Source: Crocinitomicaceae bacterium
GTDB lineage: Bacteria; Bacteroidota; Bacteroidia; Flavobacteriales_D; Crocinitomicaceae
Length of the DNA stretch: 55,440 nucleotides
NCBI GenBank assembly: GCA_029254025.1
Contig: JAQWYK010000042.1
Span: forward strand, 1 to 55,440
Reading direction: 5' to 3'
How positions within the stretch are numbered: the stretch's first letter is position 1; every line of letters starts with the position of its first letter. This document shows positions 2,837 to 44,004 of the stretch, one piece after another. Made by a program: the position numbers and the translations under genes. The notes beneath the pieces were generated by a model that saw only the letters and a list, made by a program, of their open reading frames with translations, was not told where the DNA came from and ran no database searches.

Positions 2837-4651
2837 TTAAAACTTCACGATTTTATGCACTGTTTGAGATGTTGGCGTTGAAAGGATCAGTGAATAAAGT
2901 CCTGAAGCCAATCCTTCGGTTTGAATTTTTAAATATTCGCTACCTCCAGCAACAGGAACTTCTTTTAAGTGAAAAACGACCTTTCCGCTCAAGTCTAGAA
3001 TGGAGACTTCTACCTCTTGTGCTTTCGTAGCCCCCATATGGAGAATGAAGTAACTGTTGAACGGATTTGGATAAACGCCAAATATTTCCAACGCCTCAGG
3101 CTGGTTCCCCTCAAGGTTTAGAACAGGTGCCGGAATACAAAAGTTGGAAGCAAAGCTAGGTATACTTTCTTCGCGCAAAAACCGTTCTTGATCATTGACA
3201 TAGTAAGCCTTAGCAAAAGATTGGCTATTTCCAGGTGTGTTTACATCATCCATAAAATACCATTCAGATTGCGCTCGATCTTTGGTTACATCCAAAATAA
3301 TGTATCCTTTTTCCGTTAAGTCGGCCCATTTGATATGACTGTTCATCGATTGAATCAGACTTACTCCAAAACCAATTGGAAACCCAGGTGACGTAACGCT
3401 TGTTGCCACAAATTCAACACCCCCAGAATTAGTTCCCGTGGAGCTAATATATCCAGCCATAGGGATATCATTGGCCCAAGAGGTATGGATGTCTCCTGTT
3501 AGAACAACCACATTCGGAATGTCATTAGAAATAATATAGTTGAGTAAATGATTCCGTTCATAGTTGTACCCGTCCCATTGATCGGGGTTCAAAGGAGTTC
3601 CAAATGCTTCCAACGGAGCCATCATAACCTGTTGACCAAGTATGTTCCATTGCGCTGTACTCGCCAGTAATTCTGATTTTAACCACGTAAGTTGCGTTTC
3701 ACCGAGCAATGAACGTGTTGGACTGTCTATATCGGAGGATGTCGCACCGACTTGTTCGTCACGTCCTTCTAATCGAGTATCCAGCATATATAGATTGATG
3801 AGGTCGCCATATTCTATTTTGCGGTAAATTGATGAGTCATTGCTTTCGCGAATAGGCAACCATTCAAAATATGCTTTTTTAGCGTTATTTTTACGATCAA
3901 TCCACGCGCCTTGAGCTGCCGCGTCATGATTTTCAGCGCCGTCATACCAAGCATCATTCGCCGATTCATGATCGTCCCATACACAGATAAACGGATATTG
4001 TTGATGTATGCGCTGTAAGTCGGTATCCAATCGGTAATGGCTGTAACGCAAGCGATAATCGTCAAGAGTTACAATTTCATGTAATGGTTCATGGGTGCGA
4101 TCTGCAATATTTGCACTATATCCTCCTGCTGCATATTCATAAATATAGTCTCCTAAGTGTAGCACTGCATTCACATCGTTTCGCTCTGCAATAGCGCGAT
4201 AGGCATTAAAGTATCCATATTCGTAATTGGAGCACGACACAACAGCAAAACGGACATTTTCATTGTCTCCTAAGTCGGCAGTAATAGCTCTTCCAGGTAC
4301 GGAATATTTTCCGTCTACTTCAAAGCCGTAGTAATAACAGGTCGAAGGATTGAGCCCGGAAACGTCCACTTTTACTGTGTAATCACGGCTCTGACTAGTG
4401 TAGAAATAACCACTATTTACGAGATTATTGAGTAGCGTATCGGTAGCAATACGCCAATTTACACGAATAGAGTCGCTGTTGATTTCCTCGGGTGTAACGC
4501 GTGTCCAAATAATCACACGATCATGCAAGGGGTCACCTGAAGCCACTCCGTGATAAAATGGAGCATGTACAGTTTTAAGTACGTTTCGCTCCTTTTGTGC
4601 GACAGCAAAGATCGAAATGAGCAATAGAAGAAGTGAGGGTAGGATTTTCAT
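2837..4651 (-). CDS. Secreted PhoD-like alkaline phosphatase with T9SS sorting domain
   Basis: Predicted exported phosphomonoesterase or diesterase that releases phosphate from organic esters. Residues 1-18 form a signal peptide ending AVA-Q. The PhoD N-terminal part (HGVASGDPLHDRVIIWTRV) is followed by the metallophosphoesterase core: VSCSNYEYGYFNAY, LHLGDYIYEY, WDDHESANDAW and LTGDIHTSW supply the metal ligands expected for the Fe/Ca PhoD fold. The last 80 or so residues (from about VYPNPFNSYF to HKIVKF) are a type A T9SS C-terminal sorting domain, so the enzyme should be secreted or surface-bound. It is last in an operon, 9 bp after a second phosphatase. Substrate cannot be read from the sequence. 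Confidence 0.9.
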   Translation of the reverse strand: MKILPSLLLLLISIFAVAQKERNVLKTVHAPFYHGVASGDPLHDRVIIWTRVTPEEINSDSIRVNWRIATDTLLNNLVNSGYFYTSQSRDYTVKVDVSGLNPSTCYYYGFEVDGKYSVPGRAITADLGDNENVRFAVVSCSNYEYGYFNAYRAIAERNDVNAVLHLGDYIYEYAAGGYSANIADRTHEPLHEIVTLDDYRLRYSHYRLDTDLQRIHQQYPFICVWDDHESANDAWYDGAENHDAAAQGAWIDRKNNAKKAYFEWLPIRESNDSSIYRKIEYGDLINLYMLDTRLEGRDEQVGATSSDIDSPTRSLLGETQLTWLKSELLASTAQWNILGQQVMMAPLEAFGTPLNPDQWDGYNYERNHLLNYIISNDIPNVVVLTGDIHTSWANDIPMAGYISSTGTNSGGVEFVATSVTSPGFPIGFGVSLIQSMNSHIKWADLTEKGYIILDVTKDRAQSEWYFMDDVNTPGNSQSFAKAYYVNDQERFLREESIPSFASNFCIPAPVLNLEGNQPEALEIFGVYPNPFNSYFILHMGATKAQEVEVSILDLSGKVVFHLKEVPVAGGSEYLKIQTEGLASGLYSLILSTPTSQTVHKIVKF

Positions 4652-4660
4652 GTTGTCTTA

Positions 4661-6262
4661 TTATTCTTTGATTATTTTAATAGATTGAACGGAGCCATCC
4701 TCCTCTGTGATATAAATATAGTTTACTCCTGAACAAGACGCCGTGAGATCGACAGTATGACTTTTTGTCGAGACTATCTCGGAACTACATAATTTTCCGA
4801 GGCTGCTGTAGAGTTCTACTTTGACATTAGAGACTTCTTGAGGGAATTCGAGAACAACTTCATCTATTGCTGGATTAGGGAAAACATGGATTTTATTCAG
4901 GTCATTCTCGTCAGGGGTTGATAAGGTTGTGTTTTTGATAATAATCATTTCTCCTGTTGCAGGAGACCAAACACTGGCATTATTGGGAAGGTTTCCTCCT
5001 AAATTGTCACTCGTGTTTTCGGTTACGGCATTCACATTTTCAAACTTTACGCACTGAATTGTAGTGCTGTCTTGGTTCACTTTAACAAAGAAGAAACTAT
5101 CAAATACCCCCTGGTCGCGTACGTAAGGTTTTTTATTAGCGCCAGGAAAGTCAAGCTCCCGATGAGGGGCGCCCCATTGACCTTCCCCTATGTAAACAAT
5201 ACCATCGGGGTCTGGAACGAAGTCAGTTTTTATTGCATTTGCTTTGCAGGGGTATGTCCATTTTGTGACATGTGAGTGAGATTCGGAAACCATTCGGATG
5301 TTATGTTGTTCGAAGAGGTTCACCCAACAATCCATTTGCTCCTGCACTAACCCATAACCATTCCCCATGGAGAAAGTAGAAATGTGGTACTGCGCAAATT
5401 TCCAAAAGGGTTCTGTTGCCCCACCAGTGGAGTGCATGTTAAGGTCGTTTTGAAACCAAAGGAGTTGATTGGTCCCTGTGCATGCATTCATTTCTGAATT
5501 CAAAAAGTACAAACGCAACAATCCGCCGTTTATGTTAAGAGCATAATATTCCTCTTCTGGAACATCGAACATGTGAAAGTTGTCTTGATTATTTTCGTGG
5601 TTTCCTTGAGTGTGCATGGTAGGATACATTCTCCCATCAGAAGAAATGGTCAGTTGCCAATCGTTCAACCATTGGTCCCATTCGTTGAATGTATTAGATG
5701 TAATTTGATTCATGACAAAATCACCATTAAACGCTACAAAGTCAGGACGGATTTTAGACACAAGGATATTGCCTTCTCTGCGTTTGTCGAGGCAATTTCC
5801 ACTTGGGCAATCTTCGACATATAATCCGAATACCTTAAATCCATCGCGCGAATCACCTCCGGTGATATACGAAACTGGGTCATTAGGATTGTCTGAAAGG
5901 GTTCTAAATTTGTAACGTGCACTGACCTGACCAGCAATATCGTAGATAACGAAGTAATACATGGTATTCGGTGTTAACCCTGTTAAACGCGCGAATTTTC
6001 TGTTGTGTCCGTGAGCATTCCCTATGCGATCTACACCCTTTGTAAGCGGATACGCGGTGTGATTTGTACCTTCATCAACTGTTCCGTAATGCACAGTTCC
6101 ATCATCCCCTGACCATCCTATAACAATGGTAGATGCGGGGTCATCTCGAAAAGTGAGGGTGTATTGCCCTGTGTTGGCATAAAGTGTTATGTGAACAAAG
6201 CACAACAAAAAAGTAGTGATTCGAAGTATGGTTGTTCTGATCAAGTAGTGTTTCTTATTCAT
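4661..6262 (-). CDS. Secreted purple-acid-phosphatase-like metallophosphoesterase, T9SS sorting domain
   Basis: Predicted secreted phosphohydrolase. After a signal peptide (hydrophobic stretch about residues 8-28) comes a fibronectin-like PAP N-terminal domain (ASTIVIGWSGDDG through LTPNTMYYFVIYD). The calcineurin-like core then shows GGDSRDG, FNGDFV, TQGNHENNQDN and SESHSHVTKW, the GD/GNH/H ligand pattern of metallophosphoesterases. The C-terminus (VFPNPAIDEVVLEF to SIKIIKE) is a type A T9SS sorting domain. Start set at MNKKHYLIR: it has AAAGGA six bases upstream and begins 2 bp after the preceding stop. A longer in-frame start at 6298 would overlap the upstream gene and lengthen the N-terminus before the signal peptide. 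It shares only the broad phosphatase role with its PhoD neighbour, not the fold. Confidence 0.85.
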   Translation of the reverse strand: MNKKHYLIRTTILRITTFLLCFVHITLYANTGQYTLTFRDDPASTIVIGWSGDDGTVHYGTVDEGTNHTAYPLTKGVDRIGNAHGHNRKFARLTGLTPNTMYYFVIYDIAGQVSARYKFRTLSDNPNDPVSYITGGDSRDGFKVFGLYVEDCPSGNCLDKRREGNILVSKIRPDFVAFNGDFVMNQITSNTFNEWDQWLNDWQLTISSDGRMYPTMHTQGNHENNQDNFHMFDVPEEEYYALNINGGLLRLYFLNSEMNACTGTNQLLWFQNDLNMHSTGGATEPFWKFAQYHISTFSMGNGYGLVQEQMDCWVNLFEQHNIRMVSESHSHVTKWTYPCKANAIKTDFVPDPDGIVYIGEGQWGAPHRELDFPGANKKPYVRDQGVFDSFFFVKVNQDSTTIQCVKFENVNAVTENTSDNLGGNLPNNASVWSPATGEMIIIKNTTLSTPDENDLNKIHVFPNPAIDEVVLEFPQEVSNVKVELYSSLGKLCSSEIVSTKSHTVDLTASCSGVNYIYITEEDGSVQSIKIIKE

Positions 6263-6264
6263 GT

Positions 6265-6678
6265 TTAGTCCTTTATTATGTCTCGAATGGTGAACCAACC
6301 CTTAAAAGAGTTAGGCCATCCTTGTAATAATAATAATGCTAGTGGGGTTGTCCAATTCGCTCCTCGTTCTATGAAATCCCAGATAGGATAACCTGTTAAG
6401 GGACGTATAAGTGCTGCAGAAAAAGCCCAAAGTGCTGCCCAAAAAAGTAGTATTCGAATGGGGTAAAACAATACGGCGGCCGCAACAACAAAATCGAGTA
6501 TTCCAATCAACGGCATGACTATGATAGCTGAGGTTTCTGAAAATCCTACATAAGTAAGAAATGGGATCCAGTCAGTTTTTACGCTCAGCGCAAAAACACC
6601 ATGACCAACAAAAGTGAGTGCAACTCCGATTCGTAGAATGTAGCTGATTTCATTTTTTTGTTGTTGTAATTTAGTCAT
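6265..6678 (-). CDS. Small DoxX-like integral membrane protein
   Basis: A 137-residue protein with about four hydrophobic helices (near 15-32, 46-68, 71-90 and 105-120). The start RIGVALTFVGHGVFAL and the spacing of helices resemble the DoxX/DoxD superfamily. The match is by eye only, and members of that superfamily have no uniform function. It is first in the operon ahead of the two secreted phosphatases, with 2 bp to the next gene, so it is almost certainly co-transcribed with them. A role in the membrane linked to phosphate scavenging is possible but not shown. Confidence 0.6.
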   Translation of the reverse strand: MTKLQQQKNEISYILRIGVALTFVGHGVFALSVKTDWIPFLTYVGFSETSAIIVMPLIGILDFVVAAAVLFYPIRILLFWAALWAFSAALIRPLTGYPIWDFIERGANWTTPLALLLLQGWPNSFKGWFTIRDIIKD

Positions 6679-18858: not shown

Positions 18859-20241
18859 TTAAAAAATTTTGTCAGGATTCAAGATGCCCTTTGGGTCAAA
18901 AACCTTTTTGATGTTACGCATGAGTTCAAGGTGAACTTCACTGAATGCTATTGGCATGAACTGCTTTTGAACGTATCCAATACCGTGTTCACCTGAGAGG
19001 GTTCCTCCCAAGGAGACGGTTAATTCAAAAATCTCAGTAATTGCTTTCGGTAGATCTTCGTTCCATTGTTGATCGGTTAAATCCCCTTTAATGATATTCA
19101 CGTGAAGATTTCCATCGCCAGCATGTCCGTAACAAACGGATTGAATTCCATATTTCTTGCCAATTTCTTTTACACCAACCAGGAGTTGTGGTAGTCTATA
19201 TCGTGGAACAACAGTATCTTCTTCCTTATAGATAGAATACGCTTTAACAGCCTCTCCGACTTTTCTGCGAATGGTCCATAGTTGGTCTTTTTGAGCATGT
19301 GACTCTGCGAAGAGAATTTCGTCTGTTTCAAAGTTTTCGAGTACCGTCGTTATTTTTTCACATTCTTCAAAGAGTTGATCTAAGTCGAACCCGTCCACCT
19401 CAATTAACAAGTGGGCAGCATGGTTTTCTTTCACATCTATCGTTATATCAGCAAAATGCTTTAGCGTCCATGTTAATGCATCGCGTTCCATGAATTCTAG
19501 CCCACTTGGAGTAATTCCGGCATTAAATATTTGTGCAACAGCCTCGCATGCCTGAGCTGCGTCGTAAAATGGAACGAGCATCAATAAGTCTGCAGTTGGA
19601 TGTGGGATGAGCCTAAGCACAATTTTTGTAATTACGCCGAGGGTTCCTTCACTTCCTACGAGGAGTTGCGTAAGGTTATAACCAGTAGCATTTTTTAGAA
19701 CATTTGCCCCTGTCCAGATTATTTCTCCAGAAGGAAGAACCACCTCTAGATTCAATACGTAATCCGCAGTCACTCCGTATTTTACAGCTTTTGGACCTCC
19801 ACTATTCTCAGAAACATTTCCACCAATAAAACAACTCCCTTTGCTTGCCGGATCGGGAGGATAAAACAATCCTTTTTCACGCACCGCATCTTGAAGTACT
19901 TGAGTGATAACTCCTGGTTCAGTAATAACTTGAAGGTTATCTTCGTCGATTGATAAAATTCGGTTGAATTTTTCCATACTGAGTAGAACTCCACCACGGA
20001 CGGGTAACGCTCCACCACTTAGTCCAGTTCTTGCTCCTGCCGGAGTAACATAGATTTCATGAGAATTACAAAAGCGCATGATAGCACTTATCTCCTCTAC
20101 GGTTGAAGGTTTAACTACCACATGGGGGAGAAACCGCAAGTCTTCCGTTTCGTCATGGCTATAATTCTCTAAAGACCCTTTGTCTATATAGGAAATATCA
20201 TCAAATGTATCTAAGAAGAGTTTTAAATGTTCCGTATTCAT
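18859..20241 (-). CDS. FAD-linked oxidase, GlcD/D-lactate dehydrogenase type
   Basis: Oxidises a 2-hydroxy acid such as glycolate or D-lactate. The 460 residues have a PCMH-type FAD domain (about 38-215: VVVKPSTVEEISAIMRFCN, PAGARTGLSGGALP, DPASKGSCFIGGNVSENSGG, GSEGTLGVITKI). The C-terminal oxidase domain shows CYGHAGDGNLHVNI and GTLSGEHGIGYVQK, whose histidines belong to the metal and substrate site. No iron-sulfur GlcF gene is nearby, so it may act with a distant partner or alone. Electron acceptor and substrate are not set by the sequence. It starts 3 bp after a small secreted protein gene. Confidence 0.9.
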   Translation of the reverse strand: MNTEHLKLFLDTFDDISYIDKGSLENYSHDETEDLRFLPHVVVKPSTVEEISAIMRFCNSHEIYVTPAGARTGLSGGALPVRGGVLLSMEKFNRILSIDEDNLQVITEPGVITQVLQDAVREKGLFYPPDPASKGSCFIGGNVSENSGGPKAVKYGVTADYVLNLEVVLPSGEIIWTGANVLKNATGYNLTQLLVGSEGTLGVITKIVLRLIPHPTADLLMLVPFYDAAQACEAVAQIFNAGITPSGLEFMERDALTWTLKHFADITIDVKENHAAHLLIEVDGFDLDQLFEECEKITTVLENFETDEILFAESHAQKDQLWTIRRKVGEAVKAYSIYKEEDTVVPRYRLPQLLVGVKEIGKKYGIQSVCYGHAGDGNLHVNIIKGDLTDQQWNEDLPKAITEIFELTVSLGGTLSGEHGIGYVQKQFMPIAFSEVHLELMRNIKKVFDPKGILNPDKIF

Positions 20242-20524: not shown

Positions 20525-23500
20525 TTATGCTTTTGCAATTCCTATCTTGGTATCGTTCACTGCCTCGATATCCGCAGAAAATTCAATACCTTCAAATTGA
20601 CCGATACGAATAGCAGTGGCAAGCACTTCATCCGCAATATATCTTTTATTTGATTGAACGGCTTCTGCAATTTCATCGGTTGAAGATATTGTTACATTAA
20701 TCTTGTCAGTTACTTCAAGACCCGCCTCTTTGCGGAAGTTTTGAATTCGGTTTACCAATTCTCGGGCAATGCCTTCTTGCTTCAGGGCAGGAGTAATGGT
20801 GATGTCCATTGCTACAGTTATTCCCTGTTCAGAGGTGACTAACCATCCTGGAATGTCATCCGTAAGGATTTCGAAATCTTGAAAATCAAGTTGAATGATT
20901 TCTCCATTTACTTCTCCTTGCCAGCCTTGGTTTTTTTCTACTGCGGCAATTTCATTGTCTCCCCAGGAATTTACAAGGCCTGCAATTGCCTTCATTTGTT
21001 TACCGTATTTTGGCCCGATAGTTTTGAAGTTTGGCTTGATTTTTTTAACCAATACGCCTGCTGTGTCTTCAAGAAGTTCAAGCTCTTTCACATTGATTTC
21101 AGAAAGAATTAAATCTTTTACATGCTCAATTCGTCCTTTGAAATTCGGGTCTAAAATGGGAACCATAATTTTTTGGAGAGGTTGTCGCACCTTGATCTTT
21201 TCTTTTTTACGCAAGCTCAATGCCATTGACGATACTTGTTGCGCGATTTCCATTTGTGCTTCTAATTCTAAGTTGATATCAGTGGCACTTGCAGAAGGGA
21301 AATCAGCTAAATGAACAGAATGAGCATCGTGACGACCCGCGATGTTATTTAAATCAGAAAATAATTCATCTGAGTAAAATGGTGCGATTGGGGCCGATAT
21401 GATCGCAATAGATTCTAAGCATTCAAACAGAGTTTGATATGCAGCAATCTTGTCCGAAGAGTAATCCCCTTTCCAAAAACGTCTTCTGCACAATCGAACA
21501 TACCAATTTGAAAGTTGGTCATTTACGAAAGATTGAATTAATCGACCTGCTTTAGTTGGTTCGTAAGTGTTGAAGGCTTCGTCTACGTCTTGAATCAAGC
21601 TATTCAGTTTAGAAATAATCCATCGGTCAATTTCTGGTCGTGCTGCTGTCGGTATTCGTTCTTCTTGATATGCAAAACCATCAATGTTAGCATACAATGT
21701 GAAGAATGAATAGGTATTGTATAGAGTCCCGAAAAATTTACGTTGGGTTTCAACAATTCCTTCTTCGTCAAACTTTAAGTTATCCCATGGTTGAGCATTG
21801 GTAATCATGTACCAACGTGTCGCATCTGGACCGTATTTTTTTAAGGTTACGAATGGGTCAACAGCATTTCCGAGGCGTTTAGACATTTTTTGACCATTCT
21901 TATCTAATACTAATCCATTGGAAATAACATTTTTATAGGCTACCTTGTCAAAAACCATAGTGCTGATAGCGTGAAGGGTATAGAACCAGCCACGCGTTTG
22001 ATCAACACCTTCTGCAATAAAGTCTGCTGGATAGCCCAATTGTTCTTCCACCATTTCTCTATTTTCAAAAGGATAATGCCATTGAGCATAAGGCATAGAT
22101 CCAGAGTCGAACCAAACATCAATCAAGTCAGATTCACGTTTCATAGGCTTTCCTGATGCAGAAACCAAGGTGATTTTATCAACATAGTTTTTATGCAAAT
22201 CGACTTTGGAGTAATTTTGAGAAGACATATCTGATGGGTCAAAACTATCCAATGGATTAATGGCCATTACACCTGCTTTAACTGCTTTTTGACATTCTTC
22301 CTTCAGTTGTTTAATGGACGAAATACAAATTTGCTCATCGCCTTCTTCAGTTCTCCAAATTGGAATTGGAATCCCCCAATATCGGGAACGCGAAAGATTC
22401 CAGTCGTTAACATTTTCCAACCACTTCCCAAAACGACCTGTTCCGGTCGATTCAGGTTGCCAGTTAATGGTTTTATTAAGTTCGATAAGTCGATCTTTTT
22501 TGTCTGATACCTTGATGAACCAAGAATCTAGGGGATAGTAAAGGACTGGCTTATCCGTTCTCCAGCAATGTGGGTAGCTGTGTTCGTATTTTTCCACCTT
22601 GAAAGCTTTGTTCTCTTCTTTTAGTTTGATGGAAATTAATACGTCTACTGATTTTTCAGGTCGTTCATCATCTTTGTAGTATTCATTTTTTACATACATA
22701 CCTGCAAATTCTCCAACCTCAAGTCTGAATTTCCCTTGAAGATCTACGAGTGGAACCGGATTTCCTCTTTCGTCGGGAATCAATAATCCTGGAATTCCAG
22801 CTTGCTTGGCAACGAGTGCATCATCGGCTCCAAAAGTAGGAGCAGTATGCACGATTCCTGTTCCGTCCTCAGTGGTAACGAATTCACCTGGAATTACCTG
22901 GAATGCGTTCTCAGGGCTTTCCATCGGAAGGGCATACGGCAGTAATTGTTCATATCGAAGTCCTATAAGATCAGAACCCTTGAAGGTGTTGCCGACCAAA
23001 AAAGGAATAGATTTAGCTCCTTTTTCGTATGAGCTTAATGCTTCTGCGTCTTCAACAGCGACATAATTTTTTGAAAACTGTTTTCCGACAAGTGCTTTAG
23101 CAAGAATGACATGGATGGGTTCAAACGTATACTGGTTGTACGAATGTATCATGACATAATCAATGTTATTACCTACGGTAAGTGCCGTGTTGGAGGGAAG
23201 TGTCCAAGGAGTAGTTGTCCAAGCTAACAAATGCACGGTTTCAATTTCCTCGCCATTCATGTCGGTCCAAAGTGGAAGTGTACTTGTGCCTTTGATTGCC
23301 TTGAATTGTGCCACACAAGATGTGTCTTTTACGTCTTGATAACACCCCGGTTGGTTTAATTCATGCGAAGAAAGTCCCGTTCCGGCTGCTGGTGAATATG
23401 GCTGTATGGTGTATCCTTTGTAAATCAACCCTTTTTCGTACAATTGACCCAATAACCACCACACACTTTCCATATACTTAGATTCATAGGTGATATAAGG

Positions 23501-23944
23501 ATGCTCTATATCTACCCAATACCCCATTTCCTTGGTGAGGTTATTCCAAATGTCGGTATAGCGCATTACTGCTTCTTTACACGCATTGTTGTAGTCGTCT
23601 ACAGATATTTTTTTGCCAATATCTTCTTTGGTGATACCTAATTCTTTTTCGACGCCAAGTTCTACAGGTAATCCATGCGTATCCCACCCAGCTTTCCGCT
23701 TCACTTGAAAACCTTTTAGTGTTTTGTACCTACAAAAAATATCTTTTATCGATCTCGCCATCACGTGGTGAATACCTGGGAGTCCGTTAGCAGATGGAGG
23801 CCCTTCGAAAAACACGAATGTTTTTTTTTGGTCTTTTGAGTTAATAGAGGCTTGGAAAATGTTTTCCGAATCCCATTTTTTCATAACACGTTCCGCCGTT
23901 TGTGGCAGATTCAATCCGCTGTATTCCTTGTATTTTTTGCTCAT
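20525..23944 (-). CDS. ileS: Isoleucyl-tRNA synthetase, type 2, with GIHH signature
   Basis: Charges tRNA-Ile with isoleucine. Start chosen at MSKKYKEYSGLNL (1139 residues); the in-frame extension to 24022 lacks family resemblance. The adenylation core carries FFEGPPSANGLPGIHHVMAR, the editing domain is in the middle (about 180-400; WTTTPWTLPSNTALTVG), and the second signature KMSKR is at residues 686-690. The C-terminus is of the long, eukaryote-like type 2 kind. The first signature, normally HIGH (HxGH), reads GIHH at residues 57-60 (23765-23776), so the first His and third Gly have traded places. The rest of the site looks intact. This is the only ileS in the window, with no sign of decay. 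Confidence 0.96.
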   Translation of the reverse strand: MSKKYKEYSGLNLPQTAERVMKKWDSENIFQASINSKDQKKTFVFFEGPPSANGLPGIHHVMARSIKDIFCRYKTLKGFQVKRKAGWDTHGLPVELGVEKELGITKEDIGKKISVDDYNNACKEAVMRYTDIWNNLTKEMGYWVDIEHPYITYESKYMESVWWLLGQLYEKGLIYKGYTIQPYSPAAGTGLSSHELNQPGCYQDVKDTSCVAQFKAIKGTSTLPLWTDMNGEEIETVHLLAWTTTPWTLPSNTALTVGNNIDYVMIHSYNQYTFEPIHVILAKALVGKQFSKNYVAVEDAEALSSYEKGAKSIPFLVGNTFKGSDLIGLRYEQLLPYALPMESPENAFQVIPGEFVTTEDGTGIVHTAPTFGADDALVAKQAGIPGLLIPDERGNPVPLVDLQGKFRLEVGEFAGMYVKNEYYKDDERPEKSVDVLISIKLKEENKAFKVEKYEHSYPHCWRTDKPVLYYPLDSWFIKVSDKKDRLIELNKTINWQPESTGTGRFGKWLENVNDWNLSRSRYWGIPIPIWRTEEGDEQICISSIKQLKEECQKAVKAGVMAINPLDSFDPSDMSSQNYSKVDLHKNYVDKITLVSASGKPMKRESDLIDVWFDSGSMPYAQWHYPFENREMVEEQLGYPADFIAEGVDQTRGWFYTLHAISTMVFDKVAYKNVISNGLVLDKNGQKMSKRLGNAVDPFVTLKKYGPDATRWYMITNAQPWDNLKFDEEGIVETQRKFFGTLYNTYSFFTLYANIDGFAYQEERIPTAARPEIDRWIISKLNSLIQDVDEAFNTYEPTKAGRLIQSFVNDQLSNWYVRLCRRRFWKGDYSSDKIAAYQTLFECLESIAIISAPIAPFYSDELFSDLNNIAGRHDAHSVHLADFPSASATDINLELEAQMEIAQQVSSMALSLRKKEKIKVRQPLQKIMVPILDPNFKGRIEHVKDLILSEINVKELELLEDTAGVLVKKIKPNFKTIGPKYGKQMKAIAGLVNSWGDNEIAAVEKNQGWQGEVNGEIIQLDFQDFEILTDDIPGWLVTSEQGITVAMDITITPALKQEGIARELVNRIQNFRKEAGLEVTDKINVTISSTDEIAEAVQSNKRYIADEVLATAIRIGQFEGIEFSADIEAVNDTKIGIAKA

Positions 23945-24086
23945 TGGAGGTAGTATCTTAACTAAGGCGCGAAAATAAGGATTTTTGTTGGAAGAATGAA
24001 TCTGAAACAGTGAGAAGAGCATGTGTTTTTTGGTGTCTCAATAATCAATTTTTCTAGTAACTTCGTTCAAGAGATAAAATAGCAGT

Positions 24087-35329: not shown

Positions 35330-37417
35330 ATGGTATTTAAAAGTCTTCTTGCCTCGATGATTTCTGTCATCATTTTCCCAATTTCGTTGTTCGCGCAGAT
35401 TAACCCAAAAAGTATAAGCATAATTCGTGACCAGTTCGGTGTGCCTCATATATATGCAAAAACAGATAAAGAAGCTTCATACGGTTTGGCTTGGGCCCAT
35501 TCAGAAGATAACTTCAAAACAATACAGGAAACATTCTTACCGGCTGTTGGCAAACTTGGTTTGTACTCAGGCAAAGATGGTGCTTCATTGGATTATGTCG
35601 TCCAATTGTTGAAATGTAGAAAAACAGCAGAAAACAATATCAAGAACTTATCCAATGAGGTAATTGCTGTAATAGAAGGTTATATTGAAGGAATTAATGA
35701 ATATGCGAAGAAGCATCCTGAGGAAGTATTAGTGAAAGGTTCATTTCCAATGACGGTTATGGACTATCTTACTGGATATAATCTAGTTATCCATTTTTTC
35801 TCCGATACAGGGCAAACTTTACAGACCCTCTTGTCTGATAAAATTGAACCATTGAAAGAGCTTGGAGACGAAAAAGAAAAGGTAAAGTCCATTGGATCCA
35901 ATGCTTTCGCAATAAGTCGTAAAAAGACTACTGATGGAAAAACATATCTGAATATAAATACTCATCAGCCATTAGAGGGACCTTTTTCTTGGTATGAGGC
36001 ACATATAAACAGTGAAGAAGGTTGGAATATGCTAGGATCACTTTTCCCTGGATCACCCTTTCCAATGATTGGGTCAAATGAATATCTAGGGTGGACACAT
36101 ACGTTTAATTACCCTGACTTAGTAGATATTTATCAATTGGAAATGCACCCCAGAAAAAAGAATACTTACAAATTGGATAATGAATGGTTAGATCTTGAGG
36201 TATTCAAAGCAAAACTAAATTTAAAGGTATTAGGCATTAAAGTAGTATTGAAAAAGAAGGCTTATTGGAGCGTTCATGGCCCAGTTGTAAAGAACAAAAG
36301 TGGCTATTTTTCCTTCCGTTCAAATGCCCTGGAAAACATCAGTTCAATTGACCAATGGTATCAAATGAATAAAGCAAATAACTGGGAAGAGTTCAAAACT
36401 GCAATCGAAATTGAAGGATTACCGAGATTCAATATTATGTATGCAGATCGTGAGGATAATATTTACTATTTGAGCAGTGGTAAAATCCCCAAAAGAATTG
36501 ACGGTTATGACTGGGAAAATGTTCTGCCAGGTAATAAATCAGATTTAATTACAACAGGATATATGTCTTTGGATGAATTACCTCAGTTACTTAATCCAAA
36601 ACATGGTTATTTATTCAATACAAACAATTCACCCTACAACGCTGCTCATCCAGAAGACAATCTTGATGACAAAGATTTTGATGAGAACATTGGCTATACG
36701 GAACGAGAAAACAATAGAAGTATACGTTTTATGGAACTCATAAAGCTATACCCTAAATTATGTTATGAAGATTTTAAGCGAATCAAATACGATACACAAT
36801 ACCCTGATTCTTTGATAGGTCTATTTCAGTTAAATGATGTATTTAATTTAATTCCTAGTGACTATCCTGAATTGGAAGAATTAATCAACTTAATTCAACA
36901 ATGGGACCGCAAAGCAAATATTGATAATGTTGGCGCTGCACAATGGAGCATTTATTATAAAGAGCTTTCAAAAAAGATAGATGAAAAAGACTTGTATGGA
37001 TGTGATAAAATACCCGATTCGATTTTGATTGAATGTTTAATCAGTACGAAGAGTCATTTATTAAAATACTTCAATAAGTTAGCTATAAATTTGGGAGAAC
37101 AACAAGTTCATGTTAGAGGGAACAAAGAGATACCCATTCCAGGGCTTGTTGATATGATTGCGGCCATGTCCACTGAGCCTTATAAAGATGAAATGGTCAG
37201 GGCCGTGTCAGGCGAATCTTACATTATGCTTGCAAGATATAGTGAACATGGTGTAGAATTGGAAACCATATTACCCTATGGTGAATCTTGCAACCCAAAT
37301 TCCATCTACTTCACAGACCAGATGCAGTGTTATGCAAATCAGCAATTGAAACCAATGTCGTTGAGTAAAGAAATAGTACTGAATAATGCTTTGCGTATTT
37401 ATAATCCGGGGCAATAG
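35330..37417 (+). CDS. Exported penicillin-acylase family (S45, Ntn) amidohydrolase
   Basis: Predicted N-terminal-nucleophile amidase that cleaves an amide bond; relatives act on beta-lactam side chains, acyl-homoserine lactones or lipid amides. Signal peptide in residues 1-22. The alpha part starts ISIIRDQFGVPHIYAKTDKEASYGLAWAHSEDNF. The autocleavage site is KSIGSNAFAISRKKT, with Gly189-Ser190 expected to be cut and Ser190 becoming the nucleophile. YWSVHGPVVKN and RFNIMYADREDNIYYLSSGKIPKR are beta-chain family motifs. At 695 residues the length is normal. Substrate class is not readable. The gene is AT-rich to the eye, isolated between gene-poor stretches and a tRNA, which fits acquisition by transfer. 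Confidence 0.87.
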   Translation: MVFKSLLASMISVIIFPISLFAQINPKSISIIRDQFGVPHIYAKTDKEASYGLAWAHSEDNFKTIQETFLPAVGKLGLYSGKDGASLDYVVQLLKCRKTAENNIKNLSNEVIAVIEGYIEGINEYAKKHPEEVLVKGSFPMTVMDYLTGYNLVIHFFSDTGQTLQTLLSDKIEPLKELGDEKEKVKSIGSNAFAISRKKTTDGKTYLNINTHQPLEGPFSWYEAHINSEEGWNMLGSLFPGSPFPMIGSNEYLGWTHTFNYPDLVDIYQLEMHPRKKNTYKLDNEWLDLEVFKAKLNLKVLGIKVVLKKKAYWSVHGPVVKNKSGYFSFRSNALENISSIDQWYQMNKANNWEEFKTAIEIEGLPRFNIMYADREDNIYYLSSGKIPKRIDGYDWENVLPGNKSDLITTGYMSLDELPQLLNPKHGYLFNTNNSPYNAAHPEDNLDDKDFDENIGYTERENNRSIRFMELIKLYPKLCYEDFKRIKYDTQYPDSLIGLFQLNDVFNLIPSDYPELEELINLIQQWDRKANIDNVGAAQWSIYYKELSKKIDEKDLYGCDKIPDSILIECLISTKSHLLKYFNKLAINLGEQQVHVRGNKEIPIPGLVDMIAAMSTEPYKDEMVRAVSGESYIMLARYSEHGVELETILPYGESCNPNSIYFTDQMQCYANQQLKPMSLSKEIVLNNALRIYNPGQ

Positions 37418-41467: not shown

Positions 41468-41631
41468 AGTGAGCGATTAATCTGATGTTTACCACAAATT
41501 TATGGTTTAGGTCGAACAACGTGCACCTAATTTCGTTAAATAATTAAAATAGCTCAAATTATTCACGTTTTTTGGCTTGTTCTTTGTACTTTGTAGGCAA
41601 CTTCTCAAGAATTAAATCGTTTACATTAAAT

Positions 41632-44004
41632 ATGCGAATTCTAACCCTCATATTAACCCTCGTTTTGACCTCTATATTAGGTCATGCGCAGCTGGTTACG
41701 TCGGGTGGATTTTCTCCAAATGCATTAGTTCAGAATGTGTTAATAGGTCCGGGAGTACAAGTTTCAAATGTTTTTTATTCTGGTTCAGCTGGTGCCATTG
41801 GAACGTTCAACAGTACTAATGCAAACGTTGGTATTGATGAAGGAATCATCATCACAACAGGAACTATTAATCCTGGAACCGATGGTCCACACGGTCCGAA
41901 CAACCAAAGTAATGCTGGAATGGACAATGGTGCTGGAGGTTACCCACCGCTAACAAATTTGGGGGGAGCACAAACCTTTAACGCATCCATTTTGGAATTC
42001 GATTTTATCCCGTTTTCTGATACAGTTCGTTTTGAGTATGTGTTCGGTTCTGAAGAATATCCCGAGTATGTCGGAAGTCAATTCAATGATGTCTTTGCAT
42101 TTTTCATAACGGGTCCAGGATTGAATCCGGCTGGAGAAAACATGGCAATTATTCCCGGAACGACTTTGCCTGTTGCCATCAATAACGTAAATGCGGGACA
42201 GAATAGTCAGTATTTTACCAACAATGGAAATGGAAGTGAGGCGCCTTTTGATGGTAGTCCATTTTACATTCAATACGATGGGTTTACGAAGCCATTACAA
42301 GCTGTTTCTCGCGTTGAATGTGGGGAAACTTATCACTTGATTATTGCACTTGCAGATGTGGGAGATGCTATTTTTGATTCTGGAATATTTTTAAAGGCCA
42401 ATAGTTTCTCAAGTGAGCAGCCCGTTTCAGTAGACTATACATTGTCGAGCGACCCATATTTGGACGGACAGACAATGGCAGCTGGATGTACAAGCGCAAC
42501 ATTTACGATTACACGATCTGGTTCAGGATTGAATCAACCGTTGACCATTCCGATTAATGTTTCGGGTTCAGCGGTGGAGGGTGTTGATTATACAAATGTG
42601 CCAAATTCCATTACGTTTGCCGCTAATCAAACAATCGTGTCATTCACGATCGAAGCTTTTGCAGGTGGAACCATTTCTGGAATAGGAAATATTATTTTGG
42701 AGTTTGAAATATTAGATCCTTGTGGTGACCAAAATTTTCAGACTTTTGAGTTGTTCATACAAGAAGTACAAGATGTAGAAGTGACGTTTGAGGTTTCAGA
42801 AGTTTTATGTCCTGGTGACCCCGTGCAATTGGTAGCTCAAGCTACTGGCGGGGGAGGTGGTTATACTTACTTATGGAATACAGGTGAAACGACATCCAGT
42901 ATTTCAATTAATCCAACGAGTACAGATACCTACACGGTTCAAGTTACAGACGATTGTTTGAATCAAACTGCTGAATTTTCAGGTACCGTTACTGTTCCGG
43001 TATACAATGAACTTATTATTGATGTGACGGATGATATCGTAGAGCAATGTCCTTATATACCCTTTGATTTATTTGTTGAAGTAGCTGGTGGAGCTGGAAA
43101 TTATACGTATCAATGGACTGATGAAAACGGAGTTGAATTAAGCAATGGTAATGGAGTGAATGTTGATCCAGAGTCAACATCCACTTACTTTATCACAGTT
43201 TCTGATAAGTGTGGAGAAAATGTTACAGATGAGGTAACGATCACAATTTTAAGTCCACCGTTGGTACTTTCAATCACTCCTCCTCAAGAAATTTGTCCCT
43301 TTGACTCGGTATTTTTAGAGGTTGAAGCAACGGGTGGTTTTGGCAATTATTATTACTATTGGCCGCACAGCGGTGAAACTACTTCAGGAGTTTGGGTCAG
43401 ACCTTTTGCGATAACTTCTTACGACGTAATTGTGATGGACGATTGTCAAACCTTCCAAGTAGAAGCTCGGACAGAAGTGGTTGTGGTGAAGCCAGATGCC
43501 AATTTCTTGGCAATTACGCGTCCCTTGTTCATCAATTTACCAATTACATTTGAAAATTTGAGTACGAATGCGACCAACTATCAATGGGATTTCGGAGATG
43601 GGAACTTTTCATCGATGGTTCATCCGAATAACACGTATGACGTTCCTGGTTTTTATGATATTATGCTCGTTGCGATTGATGACAAAGGTTGTTTAGATAC
43701 CATCATCAAAACCATTGAAATTAAAGAAGAGTTCTACCTGTATGTTCCAAATGCCTTTACGCCTGACGGGAATAGGTTCAATAATACGTTTAAAGTAAGT
43801 TCGATTGGAATTGTAGATTTTGAAATCTTCATTTTTAACCGTTGGGGAGAACTATTGTTTACTTCTGATGATGTGAATTTTGAATGGGATGGGGTTTACG
43901 AAGGCAATCTTGTGAAAGATGGAACCTATGTATGGAAAATTAAGTACCGCTCCATTAATGACGACGAAGACACCATTTCAGGGCATATTACGGTGGTGCG
44001 TTAA
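41632..44004 (+). CDS. Secreted anchor-L/PKD protein with T9SS type B sorting domain
   Basis: Large surface or secreted protein of adhesin-like build, 790 residues from MRILTLILTLVLT. Signal peptide to about residue 20. Residues 25-220 form a choice-of-anchor L domain (GIITTGT-like, VFGSEEYPEYVGSQFNDVFAF). A Calx-beta-like segment follows (FTITRSGSGLNQPLTIPINV to about 360), then three SprB/Ig-like repeats with YLWNTGETTSSI, YQWTDENG and YYWPHSGETTSG. A PKD domain is next (YQWDFGDGNFSSMVHP). The last 90 residues (FYLYVPNAFTPDGNRFNNTFK to the end) are the gliding-motility-associated C-terminal type B sorting domain. It should be exported by the T9SS whose parts lie 8-11 kb away. A longer frame opens at 41572 but starts before the signal peptide. 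Confidence 0.9.
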   Translation: MRILTLILTLVLTSILGHAQLVTSGGFSPNALVQNVLIGPGVQVSNVFYSGSAGAIGTFNSTNANVGIDEGIIITTGTINPGTDGPHGPNNQSNAGMDNGAGGYPPLTNLGGAQTFNASILEFDFIPFSDTVRFEYVFGSEEYPEYVGSQFNDVFAFFITGPGLNPAGENMAIIPGTTLPVAINNVNAGQNSQYFTNNGNGSEAPFDGSPFYIQYDGFTKPLQAVSRVECGETYHLIIALADVGDAIFDSGIFLKANSFSSEQPVSVDYTLSSDPYLDGQTMAAGCTSATFTITRSGSGLNQPLTIPINVSGSAVEGVDYTNVPNSITFAANQTIVSFTIEAFAGGTISGIGNIILEFEILDPCGDQNFQTFELFIQEVQDVEVTFEVSEVLCPGDPVQLVAQATGGGGGYTYLWNTGETTSSISINPTSTDTYTVQVTDDCLNQTAEFSGTVTVPVYNELIIDVTDDIVEQCPYIPFDLFVEVAGGAGNYTYQWTDENGVELSNGNGVNVDPESTSTYFITVSDKCGENVTDEVTITILSPPLVLSITPPQEICPFDSVFLEVEATGGFGNYYYYWPHSGETTSGVWVRPFAITSYDVIVMDDCQTFQVEARTEVVVVKPDANFLAITRPLFINLPITFENLSTNATNYQWDFGDGNFSSMVHPNNTYDVPGFYDIMLVAIDDKGCLDTIIKTIEIKEEFYLYVPNAFTPDGNRFNNTFKVSSIGIVDFEIFIFNRWGELLFTSDDVNFEWDGVYEGNLVKDGTYVWKIKYRSINDDEDTISGHITVVR

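Follow-up and report, generated by a model that had tools for sequence, protein, structure and literature searches.

The isoleucyl-tRNA synthetase gene (ileS) of a Crocinitomicaceae bacterium raises the question of whether an enzyme whose first class I signature reads GIHH in place of HxGH is functional, whether it would resist mupirocin, and whether such a motif is peculiar to its genome. The gene lies on contig JAQWYK010000042.1 of assembly GCA_029254025.1, and the window is the whole stretch of 55,440 nucleotides that was analysed. With high confidence, the enzyme is read here as a housekeeping Bacteroidota type 2 isoleucyl-tRNA synthetase (IleRS2) from near Crocinitomicaceae, bearing the published GXHH signature and predicted to catalyse through His59 and to be hyper-resistant to mupirocin.

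The ileS gene occupies positions 20525-23944 of the minus strand and encodes 1139 residues, with a score of 992.8 bits against TIGR00392, whose equivalog cut-off is 621.4 bits. The mechanical list of open reading frames places its start at 24022 (1165 residues), but the start at 23944 is favoured, since numerous orthologue matches set in at the first residue of the shorter protein. Minus-strand translation of 23753-23800 gives PPSANGLPGIHHVMAR, in which the altered signature G57-I58-H59-H60 (numbered from 23944) occupies 23765-23776 with the codons GGT ATT CAC CAC. The segment PPSANGLP-GIHH-VMARS lines up with the part of E. coli IleRS1 that holds HIGH (residues 65-68, counting the initial Met as 1), and also with the HVGH of Priestia megaterium IleRS2 and the GVHH of its engineered form (8c8w_A). 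The second signature, KMSKR, is intact at residues 686-690 (21875-21889, minus strand); among the loci read, KMSKR accounts for 107 of 162 occurrences and KMSKS for 49 of 162. The first-pass annotation had named these same four residues and had argued from the ileS-like flanks and the second signature that the motif was no misreading, and both statements hold. The motif letters are unchanged in the two closest orthologues, which share 82% and 78% identity with the enzyme, and in a 25-sequence alignment G57, H59 and H60 are invariant and I58 nearly so.

On sequence grounds the enzyme is of type 2. Its C-terminal domain (PF19302/DUF5915, 171.8 bits) spans residues 943-1117 (20594-21118, minus strand), and the IleRS zinc finger (zf-FPG_IleRS, PF06827) was not found in it at E 0.001, in keeping with the long type 2 C-terminus proposed earlier. 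The single type 1 control scanned, E. coli IleRS1, has the zinc finger and lacks DUF5915, and a C-terminal domain of IleRS2 without the type 1 zinc-binding motif is a difference described in PMC10485003. Among solved structures, those of P. megaterium IleRS2 (8c8u, 8c8v, 8c8w and 8c9d) match best, at E 3.2e-235, with 786.6 bits for 8c8w, and their matches span residues 16-1111 or 16-1112 of the 1139. Next come T. thermophilus IleRS2 (677 bits) and a group of enzymes, some of whose chains are named as cytoplasmic, with type 1 enzymes far lower (S. aureus IleRS1, 307.3 bits, E 1.8e-90; P. megaterium IleRS1, 293.3 to 301.5 bits), closeness being judged by match scores without a tree.

The motif itself is already known. 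A literature search on GXHH in IleRS gave PMC10485003 (Brkic et al., 2023) as its sole match, and this is the study of active, extremely mupirocin-resistant type 2 enzymes to which the first-pass annotation had referred. It reports that HXGH is replaced by G/AXHH in many IleRS2, counting 86 such enzymes against 77 with HXGH and finding them in each of the two clades of IleRS2. GIHH belongs to this kind, since its first residue is G and its third is His. The G/AXHH enzymes, natural and engineered, are active, and the motif raises the Ki for mupirocin up to about 1000-fold, reaching the millimolar range (PMC10485003). The natural ALHH enzyme of D. radiodurans has a Ki of 6600 uM (6.6 mM), which falls to 8.1 uM once the motif is HVGH. 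In the other direction, engineered GVHH raises the Ki from 0.20 to 35 uM in T. thermophilus IleRS2 and from 1.08 to 460 uM in P. megaterium IleRS2, with some catalytic cost (PMC10485003). The G/AXHH enzymes of S. griseus and D. radiodurans are, like that of the window, housekeeping type 2 synthetases with HXGH positions 1 and 3 swapped; they are the non-canonical natural enzymes with measured Ki named in that paper, and neither is from Bacteroidota, whereas the window enzyme is a Bacteroidota GIHH protein read from its sequence alone. The natural P. megaterium enzyme differs from it in having HVGH and a Ki of 1.08 uM, and the engineered mutant in 8c8w (mut-GVHH-PmIleRS2) has a motif of the window kind. 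The finding of GIHH is thus real and correctly read, but as the variant was published in 2023 it is a correct rediscovery.

By analogy with these enzymes, the role of the usual first His most likely passes to His59, the third residue of the motif, which would stabilise the transition state when isoleucine is activated. Within the ATP/isoleucine pocket this residue would also collide with mupirocin, as modelled in PMC10485003 for the corresponding His, and the enzyme should therefore be hyper-resistant. Two type 1 contacts that hold mupirocin, an Asn and a Phe, the latter by stacking, are also described there. According to the E. coli alignment, their sites would be taken in the window enzyme by Ala63 (23756-23758, minus strand) and Leu678 (21911-21913, minus strand), respectively, and these residues thus appear to replace the type 1 Asn and Phe. 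Precisely how high the resistance is depends on the remainder of the enzyme, since the engineered GVHH forms reach only 35 and 460 uM and catalyse more slowly. An AlphaFold model built from the 25-sequence alignment has a mean pLDDT of 68.6 and a pTM of 0.48, with pLDDT below 50 at residues 41-67 and 607-698, active site included, and because of this low confidence no structural support is drawn from it. Activity in isoleucine activation is suggested by the single copy and the conservation of the gene, and resistance can soundly be predicted for the enzyme and the organism. At the whole-cell level, resistance could also stem from mupirocin entering Gram-negative cells poorly.

A search of the literature on natural mupirocin resistance in Flavobacterium found no paper, and no mupirocin MIC for any Bacteroidota species was found in the papers and passages on mupirocin that were covered. 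In an infant-gut culture study (PMC13085705), mupirocin in the medium is predicted to raise the diversity of Bacteroidaceae, which is weakly consistent with resistance in Bacteroidota and is itself no resistance test.

The enzyme is the sole ileS found in its assembly (2.70 Mb, 50 contigs, 99.91% complete), where one match exceeds the ileS cut-off, and the earlier description of it as the only visible ileS therefore survives a genome search for a second copy. The weaker matches are frames named by NCBIfam as valine, leucine, methionine and cysteine tRNA ligases. Their first motifs are LHMGH in ValRS, LHVGH in LeuRS, LHLGH in MetRS and HLGN in CysRS, and the first His and the Gly are thus in their usual places in the four other class I enzymes examined; HxGN is usual for CysRS. 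By ileS identity, among the best 80 of 591 loci, the window falls near Crocinitomicaceae, the closest named loci being Flavobacteriales UBA2104 (81%) and then a Lishizhenia MAG (78%).

Among relatives, GXHH was found in all 161 readable ileS genes, drawn from 80 named loci (those ranking best among 591 confirmed) and from 81 of the 395 Bacteroidota genomes sampled, the latter picked by best score, family or odd match and not at random. The motif was GIHH in 138, GVHH in 21, GMHH in one and GLHH in one, and the window together with three plasmid records, all GIHH, raises the total to 165. By part, the survey read 80 of 80 loci, 30 of 30 genome loci (the best-scoring 30 of the 395 genomes searched), 28 of 30 genomes and 23 of 23 genomes. 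In the two unreadable genomes the search yielded a locus other than an N-terminally complete ileS, and in one further genome (G280) the motif was taken from an N-terminal fragment on a separate contig. By hand count, each of the 55 family labels in the phylum sample has at least one of the 81 genomes read. The expression used for reading fixed the preceding letters (GPP, then S or T, then N) and left the four motif letters free, and HXGH in a type 2 context would therefore have been caught; neither HXGH nor AXHH was read in this context among the 161 relatives. The survey covers type 2 genes, leaving out type 1 ileS (GPPYANG in E. coli) and second ileS copies in relatives. GXHH is the rule among the Bacteroidota relatives read and unremarkable for this genome, so the first-pass view of the motif as striking here is not borne out, and the enzyme is an ordinary Bacteroidota housekeeping synthetase with a published active-site variant. 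In five of the genomes (G380, G057, G103, G255 and G190) the ileS match is split in two inside one open frame, the frames being 1105 to 1269 codons long against 1170 for the window frame; the longest, G103 (1241) and G190 (1269), may carry an insertion, and the others may reflect a split of the alignment only.

This conservation points to a functional motif under constraint. Against an error of sequencing or assembly, and against a decayed and inactive synthetase, stand the recurrence of this kind of motif in every readable relative, the invariance of its G and two His in the alignment, and a frame open without a stop in an assembly with no other ileS over the cut-off; nothing was found in favour of such an origin, which is scarcely conceivable. 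It is also very improbable that a second ileS of the HxGH type elsewhere in the genome is the main enzyme. The division of the assembly over 50 contigs leaves some room for one, against which stand its completeness, the single match over the cut-off and the assignment of all other matches to the ValRS, LeuRS, MetRS and CysRS frames. Sequencing error, pseudogene and second ileS were accordingly rejected on motif conservation, the open frame and the lone match.

The cause of fixation is a more evenly balanced matter. GXHH may have become fixed for a reason other than mupirocin, either by chance once the type 2 enzyme tolerated the motif or under another IleRS inhibitor, with resistance as a by-product, and this is given a chance somewhat short of even. 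The motif spans all 55 family labels, a breadth that one antibiotic need not explain, and PMC10485003 itself calls the selective pressure behind the motif presumed; on the other side stands the very large effect on mupirocin binding measured there with the motif exchanged in both directions. It is likely, in addition, that GXHH is effectively fixed across Bacteroidota without natural reversion to HXGH, in which case target-level hyper-resistance to mupirocin would characterise the phylum instead of scattered lineages.

The motif swap is a case of a catalytic signature that was rearranged with its function kept and with resistance as a consequence, as published in 2023. What is added here is the survey, with GXHH in every ileS read and with each of the 55 family labels in the phylum sample represented. 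No word beginning with "bacteroid" or "flavobacter" occurs in the main text of PMC10485003, and its figures or source data may show the phylum. If GXHH holds phylum-wide, target-level resistance to mupirocin is predicted across Bacteroidota, which bears on the scoring of housekeeping ileS as resistance genes, as in a Bacteroidota draft genome in which IleRS is listed among mupirocin resistance genes (PMC10835994).

The acquired resistance enzymes MupA and MupB are homologous to the window IleRS (753.4 and 755.1 bits, respectively), but these scores are far under the NCBIfam cut-off of 1900 bits and it belongs to neither family. MupA and MupB are an acquired second copy, whereas the window gene is the only ileS in its assembly. 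Of 255 records matched in a search of plasmids, 143 come from Staphylococcus, and those of the latter among the matches listed are annotated mupA. Nine records among the matches listed are Bacteroidota by organism name, and the three of these that were examined (NZ_CP072187.1, NZ_OY725767.1 and NZ_OY725923.1) carry a GIHH ileS. In all three, a DksA-type gene and lspA adjoin ileS, with lepA in one, and all three are typed "non-mobilizable". With such housekeeping neighbours and typing, they look like chromosome pieces and are probably such pieces deposited as circular plasmids; they were not counted in favour of a mobile GXHH gene. In these records the DksA-type gene and lspA follow ileS, whereas in the window a FAD-linked oxidase (18859-20241) follows it.

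Elsewhere in the window, 35330-37417 encodes a penicillin-amidase family protein (PF01804, 361.6 bits), a family assignment that carries no substrate information. Two adjacent genes, at 2837-4651 and 4661-6298, have products that both end in a Por secretion tail, namely a PhoD-like phosphatase and a protein whose N-terminal domain is of the purple-acid-phosphatase type. The gene at 41572-44004 encodes a PKD protein with a CHU_C signal. These last three proteins are likely cargo of type IX secretion.
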